Assembly: GCA_002773355.1 (NCBI GenBank)
Contig: PFBL01000021.1
Location: 6,734-59,706 of the forward strand
Length of the DNA: 52,973 bases
Source: Candidatus Kaiserbacteria bacterium CG10_big_fil_rev_8_21_14_0_10_56_12
Lineage (GTDB): Bacteria > Patescibacteriota > Minisyncoccia > Phycocordibacterales > Phycocordibacteraceae
Reading direction: 5' to 3'
Made by a program: the position numbers and the translations under genes
The notes under the pieces: model-generated
What the model was told of the DNA's origin: nothing
Seen by the model: the letters and a program-made list of their open reading frames with translations, nothing else
The model's database searches: none
In this document: piece by piece, positions 44,575 to 46,636 of the stretch
How the letters are laid out: each line of letters starts with the position of its first letter
How positions within the stretch are numbered: position 1 is the first letter of the stretch

Positions 44575-45972
44575 ATGTCGCTCAAGCTTAGTTTCTACGG
44601 AGGTGCCGGCCAAGTAACCGGATCTAATTTTTTAGTAGAGAGCGAGAAGGGGAAGGTATTGGTTGACTGCGGCATGGAGCAGGGGGCCGATCTGGTAGAG
44701 GAGCACCTCTACGGCCCGTTTCCGTATGATGCGACAGCTATCGATGCGCTCGTCGTGACGCATTCGCATCTTGATCACGTGGGGCGCATCCCCAAGCTCG
44801 TGCGAGACGGCTTCAAAGGCAAGATATACCTCACGCCACCTACTAAGGACCTCGCGACGCTTATACTGCTCGACTCGGTTGGTATCCTCGCCGAGGAGGC
44901 ACGCATGGAGGGTAGGGACCCCCTCTACGAAACGTCAGACGTTGAGGGGGCCTTCGCGCTCATGGAAGAGCTTGAATATCACGTCGAGAAGCCCGTTGCA
45001 CCCGGCGTCTCGGCCTATTTGCGCAATACGGGGCATATCCTGGGAGCTGCCAGCGTGCGCCTCTCGGGAGAAGACGGGACGACCATCGTGCTCACGGGCG
45101 ATATCGGCAACTCGCCCTCGCCGCTCCTCACTGACTGGGAGCCGACACCGGACGCCGACGCGCTGGTCATGGAGAGCGTGTATGGCGACCGTCTGCACCC
45201 GCGACACAAGGATCGTGTCGAGACCCTCCTCAAGGTCCTCGCGTGCGCGATCGAGCGCGGCGGGACTATCTTGATCCCCGCCTTCTCTCTCGAGCGCACC
45301 CAGCTCATGCTCTATGAGCTCTCGAACTTTTTTAGCGCGAAGCAGTTACCAGAGATCCCCGTGTTCCTCGATTCTCCACTCGCGATCAAGGTGACTGCGG
45401 TGTACGAAAAATGGGGGAGCACCTACTTCAATCCAGAGGCCGAAGCCGAGATGAAGAAGGAGAAAAGTCTCTTCGAGTTCCCCTTCCTCAAGGCGACACC
45501 GTCAACGCAGGAGTCAATGGAGATAGAGCAGGTGAAGGGCCAGAAGATTATTATCGCTGGCGCCGGCATGAGCCATGGTGGCCGTATCGGGGGCTGGGAG
45601 TCCCAGTACCTCCCAGACCCCAAGACCACGCTCATTATGGTCGGGTATCAGGCTCCAGGGACCCCGGGCCGGCGTATGCTCGAGGGTGCACGCGAGATAC
45701 GTCTTGGCGGACATCCGGTCAGGATTCGTGCGAAGGTGGAGAATGTGGAGGGATGGTCAGCACACGCAGACCGAGACGAACTGCTCAAGTTTGCCGAAGC
45801 GGCGCTTGCCAAAAAGCGCCCCCAAGCCATCTTCACAGCCCTTGGGGAGCCCGCTACCGAACGTTTCCTCGCGCAACGTATACATGACTACCTCGGCGCA
45901 CGCGCAATCGTCCCTGAGTATGGCCAAACGTGGGAGATTACGAAGGAATCAGTGAAGGAAGTTCAACATTAA
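44575..45972 (+). CDS. Metallo-beta-lactamase/beta-CASP ribonuclease (COG1236 type)
   Basis: A predicted RNA-processing nuclease of the CPSF/YSH1-like group. Metal ligands: THSHLDHVGRIP (motif 2), HILGAASV (motif 3) and LTGDIG (motif 4). The beta-CASP domain has ESVYGDRLH, IPAFSLERTQLML, FLDSPLAIKVT, AGMSHGGRI and the final GWSAHADRDEL. The length of 465 aa is typical, with no N-terminal KH domains. TAGAGT (44563-44568) ends 6 nt before the ATG, directly after the 6S-like terminator. It may mature RNAs such as its structured neighbours; that is speculation. Confidence 0.93.
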   Translation: MSLKLSFYGGAGQVTGSNFLVESEKGKVLVDCGMEQGADLVEEHLYGPFPYDATAIDALVVTHSHLDHVGRIPKLVRDGFKGKIYLTPPTKDLATLILLDSVGILAEEARMEGRDPLYETSDVEGAFALMEELEYHVEKPVAPGVSAYLRNTGHILGAASVRLSGEDGTTIVLTGDIGNSPSPLLTDWEPTPDADALVMESVYGDRLHPRHKDRVETLLKVLACAIERGGTILIPAFSLERTQLMLYELSNFFSAKQLPEIPVFLDSPLAIKVTAVYEKWGSTYFNPEAEAEMKKEKSLFEFPFLKATPSTQESMEIEQVKGQKIIIAGAGMSHGGRIGGWESQYLPDPKTTLIMVGYQAPGTPGRRMLEGAREIRLGGHPVRIRAKVENVEGWSAHADRDELLKFAEAALAKKRPQAIFTALGEPATERFLAQRIHDYLGARAIVPEYGQTWEITKESVKEVQH

Positions 45973-46003
45973 AATAGCCCCCGTTGATGCTATCTCAGGG
46001 GGC
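45970..46003 (-). terminator. Terminator of the unidentified minus-strand RNA
   Basis: On the minus strand a 6-bp GC stem (gccccc / gggggc, 46003-45977) with a 15-nt loop is followed by TATTTTAA. On the plus strand no T-run follows, so it serves the minus strand. Confidence 0.6.
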
Positions 46004-46235
46004 GTATCGAACGTGTTCCACGTGCGGGAATGTCTCGCTTATGTGGTCTTAGGACGTTTCTCCACCATCTCACCGGGCTTACTGACACCTGTCAATGCGG
46101 GGTGGTTTTCGGACTTTCGTCCTCCATTTCCCTCTTACGAGGGTAGTACCGGCTGTGGCAGCGTCACCATTAGACGCAAGGGAGCAACACTTGTCCCAGT
46201 ATAGGCTGTTGCTCAACACCATACACGTTCGACCC
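45977..46235 (-). ncRNA. Unidentified structured RNA, about 260 nt
   Basis: The 316-nt gap between the nuclease gene and rplT holds no convincing ORF but a highly structured minus-strand segment. The 5' end (tcgaacgtgt, 46232-46223) and 3' end (acacgttcga, 46016-46007) form a perfect 10-bp closing helix. Inside are gagcaac/gttgctc (7 bp), gcgtc/gacgc (5 bp, 7-nt loop), ccctc-GTAA-gaggg and ggac-GAAA-gtcc (both GNRA loops on this strand only), and a ccacc/ggtgg helix. TATGCT lies 7 nt before the 5' GGG, and a terminator follows. I could not match it to RNase P, tmRNA, SRP RNA or a known riboswitch. Confidence 0.6.
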
Positions 46236-46253
46236 AAAGAAAGCATAGCAAGA

Positions 46254-46278
46254 AAGCCGCCCCGTGAGGGGCGGTTTT
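46254..46278. terminator. Terminator downstream of rplT
   Basis: ccgcccc-gtga-ggggcgg, extended by wobble pairs, with T-rich flanks on both strands. It ends the infC-rpmI-rplT message and separates it from the unidentified RNA gene. Confidence 0.7.
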
Positions 46279-46288
46279 CTACCGCCTG

Positions 46289-46636
46289 CTAGACAATCTT
46301 TTTGGCGATGCGTTCGAAGATTTCTGGGTACTCGCTCGCGAAGGTTGCGAGAGATTTGCGATCGAGTTCGATACCAGCCTTCTTCACCTTACCGATAAAC
46401 GTGCTGTATGACTGGTGGCCATTCTCGCGGACGGCGGCGTTCAAACGCACGATCCACAGCTGACGAAAGTCGCCCTTCTTGTCGCGACGATGGGCGAAGG
46501 CGTAGCGTCCTGCACGCATGAGGCTCTCATGAGCCTGCTTGATCTTGGTGGAGCTCCCGTGGCGATAGCCCTTGGCCCTCTTTAGTATGTTGGTGCGACG
46601 TTTGTTCGCGCTCAATCCTCCTTTGACTCGTGCCAT
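46289..46636 (-). CDS. rplT: Large ribosomal subunit protein bL20
   Basis: An early 50S assembly protein; in several bacteria it represses its own operon. The 115-aa product starts ARVKGGLSANKRRTNILKRAKGYRHG and has RDKKGDFRQLWIVRLNAAVRENG and LDRKSLATFASEYPEIFERI. It closes the infC-rpmI-rplT operon, 20 nt after rpmI on the minus strand. Confidence 0.97.
   Translation of the reverse strand: MARVKGGLSANKRRTNILKRAKGYRHGSSTKIKQAHESLMRAGRYAFAHRRDKKGDFRQLWIVRLNAAVRENGHQSYSTFIGKVKKAGIELDRKSLATFASEYPEIFERIAKKIV

Follow-up and report, generated by a model that had tools for sequence, protein, structure and literature searches.

What kind of gene occupies the minus strand between rplT and the MBL exonuclease gene of Candidatus Kaiserbacteria bacterium CG10_big_fil_rev_8_21_14_0_10_56_12? 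Within the window (the whole stretch of DNA analysed, 52,973 nucleotides), a preliminary description had proposed a structured RNA on this strand, and the proposal is borne out by the stability of the fold (z −3.5) and by a homolog, referred to below as L102, that carries compensatory changes. The segment 46235-45970 (-) represents a predicted RNA gene of about 230-260 nt between rplT and the convergent MBL gene, the neighbouring genes being those for the MBL exonuclease, rplT, rpmI and infC. Its features are as follows.

46257..46274, no strand assigned: separate terminator hairpin at the rplT end, upstream of the RNA, found on the minus strand
46242..46247, minus strand: weak −10-like hexamer TATGCT, read directly, 6 nt before the predicted start GGG (46235)
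46007..46235, minus strand: body of the structured RNA (fold z −3.5, homolog L102, compensatory changes)
46223..46232, minus strand: 5' strand of closing helix P1, TCGAACGTGT, pairing with 46007-46016; 6 two-sided compensatory changes to L102
46217..46221, minus strand: conserved UGGUG after P1, identical in L102 (1510-1514)
46182..46214, minus strand: P2 hairpin, GAGCAACA/UGUUGCUC; predicted pairs, one of them changed on both sides (GC to AU) in L102
46161..46177, minus strand: P3 hairpin with 7-nt loop UAAUGGU (46172-46166); loop identical in both members, stem UA changed to CG in L102
46147..46160, minus strand: P4 element, UGCC/GGUA, pair probability 0.77-0.96
46130..46143, minus strand: P5 hairpin, CCCUC-GUAA-GAGGG with GNRA loop; changed on both sides at two pairs in L102, which does not keep the loop
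46051..46123, minus strand: variable P6 arm; local hairpin GGACGAAAGUCC (46122-46111) competes with GGACG/CGUCC (46056-46051)
46018..46046, minus strand: P7 hairpin, CCAC/GUGG, then a single A and P1; matching arrangement in L102
46007..46016, minus strand: 3' strand of P1 (pair probabilities, compensatory changes, independent recovery in L102)
45970..46003, minus strand: intrinsic terminator, GCCCCC...GGGGGC (hairpin 46003-45977) followed by UAUUUUA

The terminator on the minus strand is present as previously proposed, with a tail that overlaps the convergent MBL gene at its stop codon. As to the promoter, the −10-like hexamer was confirmed but at a spacing of 6 nt instead of 7, and no sigma-70-like pair was detected in a formal promoter scan. 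The hairpin at the rplT end shows, by eye, a T-run on the plus strand as well. From its own terminator and the weak −10-like site, the window RNA is predicted to be transcribed independently.

The full segment, 46235-45970 (-), was predicted to fold with a minimum free energy (MFE) of −98.8 kcal/mol, and none of 200 dinucleotide-shuffled sequences folded as well. The architecture is multi-branched, being closed by P1, with the terminator at the end. The 10-bp closing helix recognized beforehand was recovered with its inner nine pairs at a probability of 0.88-1.0, and the several internal helices noted together with it are present in the MFE structure. Of the two GNRA hairpins in the preliminary description, the one with the GUAA loop stands in the MFE structure, while the GAAA hairpin is absent from it and folds only locally, when taken alone, since the MFE favours the long-range pairing of GGACG with the distal CGUCC. 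Within P6, GGAC is able to pair either locally (GUCC) or distally (CGUCC), and by eye the same choice exists in L102, where GGAU may pair with AUCC or with the distal UAUCC; the two alternative pairings could possibly form a conformational switch. A sequence resembling the start of P6, GGACGAAAGTCCGATACCACCCC followed by a terminator-like hairpin, was noted at another locus (L039, G038:C7:11850-11872), probably by chance.

A covariance model (R1), constructed from the window sequence alone and its predicted fold, was run against 397 genomes of the order, and two matches were obtained, L101 and L102. L101 is an RNase P gene. L102 (G256:C32:5343-5544), which R1 detected in its full length, belongs to a genome from another family of the same order, and lies in the intergenic region that separates a hisS-like gene from an S21-like gene (named by eye; no Pfam match), upstream of the latter and on the same strand. 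A pattern scan of genome contigs gave only one contig, CAIQCQ010000032.1, which is taken to be that of L102 on the basis of contig number and position. The helices of L102 are arranged in the same order as those of the window RNA, including UGGUG after P1, P2 (GAACAAC/GUUGUUC), the UAAUGGU loop, UGCC/GGUA, CUCC/GGAG and AUGGA, and the motif UGGAA is common to both. At the position of P6, L102 carries GGAUUCUAGAUCC and then an A-rich stretch similar to that of the window RNA, while its P7 (CCAAAC/GUUUGG) is followed by a single A and the 3' strand of P1. P1 of L102 opens with a G, 6 nt upstream of which stands the hexamer TACACT, and the RNA's own terminator follows directly after P1.

In the automatic alignment of the two members (MAFFT with RNAalifold), the 3' half was misaligned even after trimming of P6, and therefore compensatory pairs were counted on a hand-anchored alignment, in which helices were anchored by the motifs. 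A total of 11-12 pairs were changed on both sides with pairing kept, 6 in P1, one each in P2 and P3, two in P5 and 1-2 in P7. P4 is identical in sequence in L102, and hence receives no support from covariation; the P6 arm of the MFE structure is not conserved in L102 and shows no compensatory changes. The 3' strand of L102 P1, lying outside the sequence-aligned part, forms 11 of 12 Watson-Crick pairs, a value equalled by one of 5000 shuffles. By themselves, the E-value of L102 with R1 (5e-4 per genome, 397 genomes searched) and the expectation from sequence only (0.13 such similarities per 400 genomes) are modest and similar in magnitude. Because a similarity of this kind is expected 0.13 times, sequence alone is insufficient, and our confidence in L102 comes from P1, P7, the terminator and the position, all of which add to the scores. 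L102 alone folds unremarkably (z −1.1). The fold is real, because both strands of several helices changed together in the second genome. The secondary structure is conserved between two members at unrelated loci, independent of rplT, these being the only two members known of the class. A protein-coding gene was rejected: substitutions are flat over the codon phases (8/8/5), each of the six frames of the window RNA is broken by at least one stop, and the overlapping ORFs gave no Pfam match.

The window gave no match to known RNA families by cmscan at Rfam gathering thresholds. The low-threshold cmscan recommended in the preliminary description yielded, at E up to 10, neither RNase P nor any convincing known family, the matches within the RNA region being short or weak; likewise, L102 gave no RNase P and nothing convincing at E up to 10. 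The longest weak match of the window RNA was to group II intron domains D1-D4-5 (RF02004), with 15.7 bits (E 0.42) versus a threshold of 34.5 bits, and this family was not among the matches of L102. Neither member matched SRP RNA or 6S RNA at E up to 10. The window RNA shares paired ends with tmRNA (RF00023) but is without a tRNA-like end or tag: ARAGORN detected no tmRNA in the window, neither a tRNA-like domain nor a tag ORF was found, and a separate tmRNA gene exists elsewhere in the genome (G000:C20:127-533, 105 bits). Retron msr-msd RNAs resemble the window RNA in having paired ends, several hairpins and one long variable arm; here, in contrast, no reverse transcriptase gene was present among the neighbour genes examined at the window locus or L102. 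OLE, raiA and other large structured bacterial ncRNAs are stand-alone RNAs whose ends pair and whose junction nucleotides are conserved. The window RNA is comparable to them only in the way they work, and none of them was matched when Rfam was scanned at E up to 10. No prior description of this RNA class was found in a limited literature search.

For the distribution of the RNA, an rplT gene was identified in 89 out of 99 related genomes. Among the loci that were read, many relatives have 24-62 nt between rplT and the MBL gene, and in others unrelated ORFs fill this gap, so the window RNA is not a conserved feature of the rplT locus, and the regions downstream of rplT did not serve as the source of homologs that had been anticipated. 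Within the genus, the rplT-MBL junction (window 45970-46290) is a hot spot for insertions. In the nearest relative (G050; L004, 540-1200), a kinase-like ORF, named by eye, is inserted at this junction, followed by what seems to be a duplicate of the MBL 3' end.

The RNA is present as a single copy in its genome, and R1 detected it in none of the 92 further genus genomes. By blastn, no homolog was detected in 93 genomes of the genus, in 99 genomes of relatives or in phages and plasmids; the phage and plasmid matches were short pieces, taken as chance, and several blastn and covariance-model matches fell on RNase P genes. A second model (R2), representing the 5' domain, was applied to the family of G256, to genomes sampled from the order, class and phylum and to viral contigs, setting aside matches inside ORFs (L149, L150, L151 and L152) and those without the conserved loop (L105, which lacks the P3 loop), and nothing further was accepted. 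Five pattern scans of viral contigs, with 80 loci rescored by R2, gave weak matches only and no accepted homolog; among these loci, L182/L180 and L188 are inside ORFs, and L131/L139, L116, L137 and L175 were read as coding by eye. All these searches start with a quick first look, by which very divergent members could be missed. Within the genomes sampled, the RNA class is rare and patchy and is not tied to rplT. This patchiness could have arisen through loss in most lineages or through horizontal transfer.

Taken together, we consider that 46235-45970 (-) is probably a stand-alone ncRNA gene, acting in trans and belonging to a rare new class with two members. The product would be an RNA of approximately 230-260 nt, its ends paired by P1 around a multi-helix junction, and its transcript would end at its own terminator. 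The junction would carry the conserved motifs UGGUG, the UAAUGGU loop, UGCC/GGUA, AUGGA and UGGAA, with P6 as a variable arm. Since the next gene downstream is convergent, the window RNA cannot be its leader, and action in trans is suggested by the same arrangement. The identical loops, combined with the variable arm, are probably the site of protein binding or else a catalytic or tertiary core. An RNP or a ribozyme would accordingly be the most likely mechanism.

Several other explanations were weighed against this reading. The preliminary description had left the choice between a very divergent known RNA and a new class, pointing to a segment reminiscent of conserved region I (CRI) of RNase P RNA. 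The local likeness holds, as the match GGACGAAAGTCCGAAAAC..CCCCGC to the RNase P RNAs of relatives scored 39, while the best of 300 shuffles reached 34, and as noted above some matches fell on RNase P genes. Apart from this single 33-nt stretch and the multi-branch form, however, the window RNA differs from bacterial RNase P RNA (RF00010): it falls short of the model length by about 140 nt, it contains no other conserved region among the features looked for, and the class A model gave no match in the region at E up to 10 (criterion, at least 100 bits). The region V motif ACAGAA is absent, exactly as first reported, and with it the P4 formed by CRI and CRV; L102 has the rest of the fold without the CRI string. 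RNase P RNA is normally encoded by a sole gene, yet a normal copy exists elsewhere in this genome (G000:C18:3306-3673, 120 bits). A degenerate or very divergent RNase P RNA, as second copy or pseudogene, is therefore extremely improbable. The window RNA is not RNase P, and of the two options the new class is retained.

Action in cis, as a leader or riboswitch or as an attenuator at the 3' side of rplT, would agree with the order of junction and terminator, with the competing GGAC/GGAU pairings in P6 that are possible in both members, and with the fact that L102 precedes the S21-like gene in the same orientation. This explanation is nevertheless unlikely, given the convergent gene downstream of the window RNA, the separate terminator between rplT and the RNA, and the different genes adjoining the two members. 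The patchy distribution, the different inserts carried by the rplT-MBL site in relatives and the perfect 10-bp inverted repeat at the ends might instead point to a small mobile element of MITE type, inserted at this hot spot with P1 as its terminal repeats. Such an element would be expected in several copies with conserved terminal sequence, whereas here a single copy is found, the 6 compensatory changes in P1 indicate ends conserved as a helix and not as a sequence, the terminator is strand-specific, and no target duplication was seen by eye; we regard this possibility as quite unlikely, slightly more so than a leader. A lineage-specific regulatory sRNA, pairing with targets in trans and folded mainly for stability, would account for the size, the terminator cassette, the rarity and the accessory-like distribution. 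The conserved parts, however, are the junction and loop motifs, and a closed multi-helix architecture is unusual among regulatory sRNAs, leaving a small though appreciable chance for this explanation.

There are few classes of large structured ncRNA, and unusual biochemistry has come to light with several of them. For the stand-alone RNA favoured here, the novelty lies at the level of the RNA class, with two members, no Rfam relative and its own architecture. An accessory RNA kept in a genome of 0.63 Mb and not found in close relatives raises the question of its role in an otherwise minimal cell. The chances are about even that this class, perhaps with a ribozyme or RNP core, occurs sporadically in tiny-genome bacteria of the Patescibacteria type and has been passed between lineages.

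At the L102 locus, another very stable element (z −7.9) was observed upstream of the S21-like gene, at 1775-1935 on the plus strand, without an Rfam match at the gathering threshold. There UUUUUGCCCCA/UGGGGCAAAAA close a long hairpin, which is possibly a ribosomal protein leader or another RNA.
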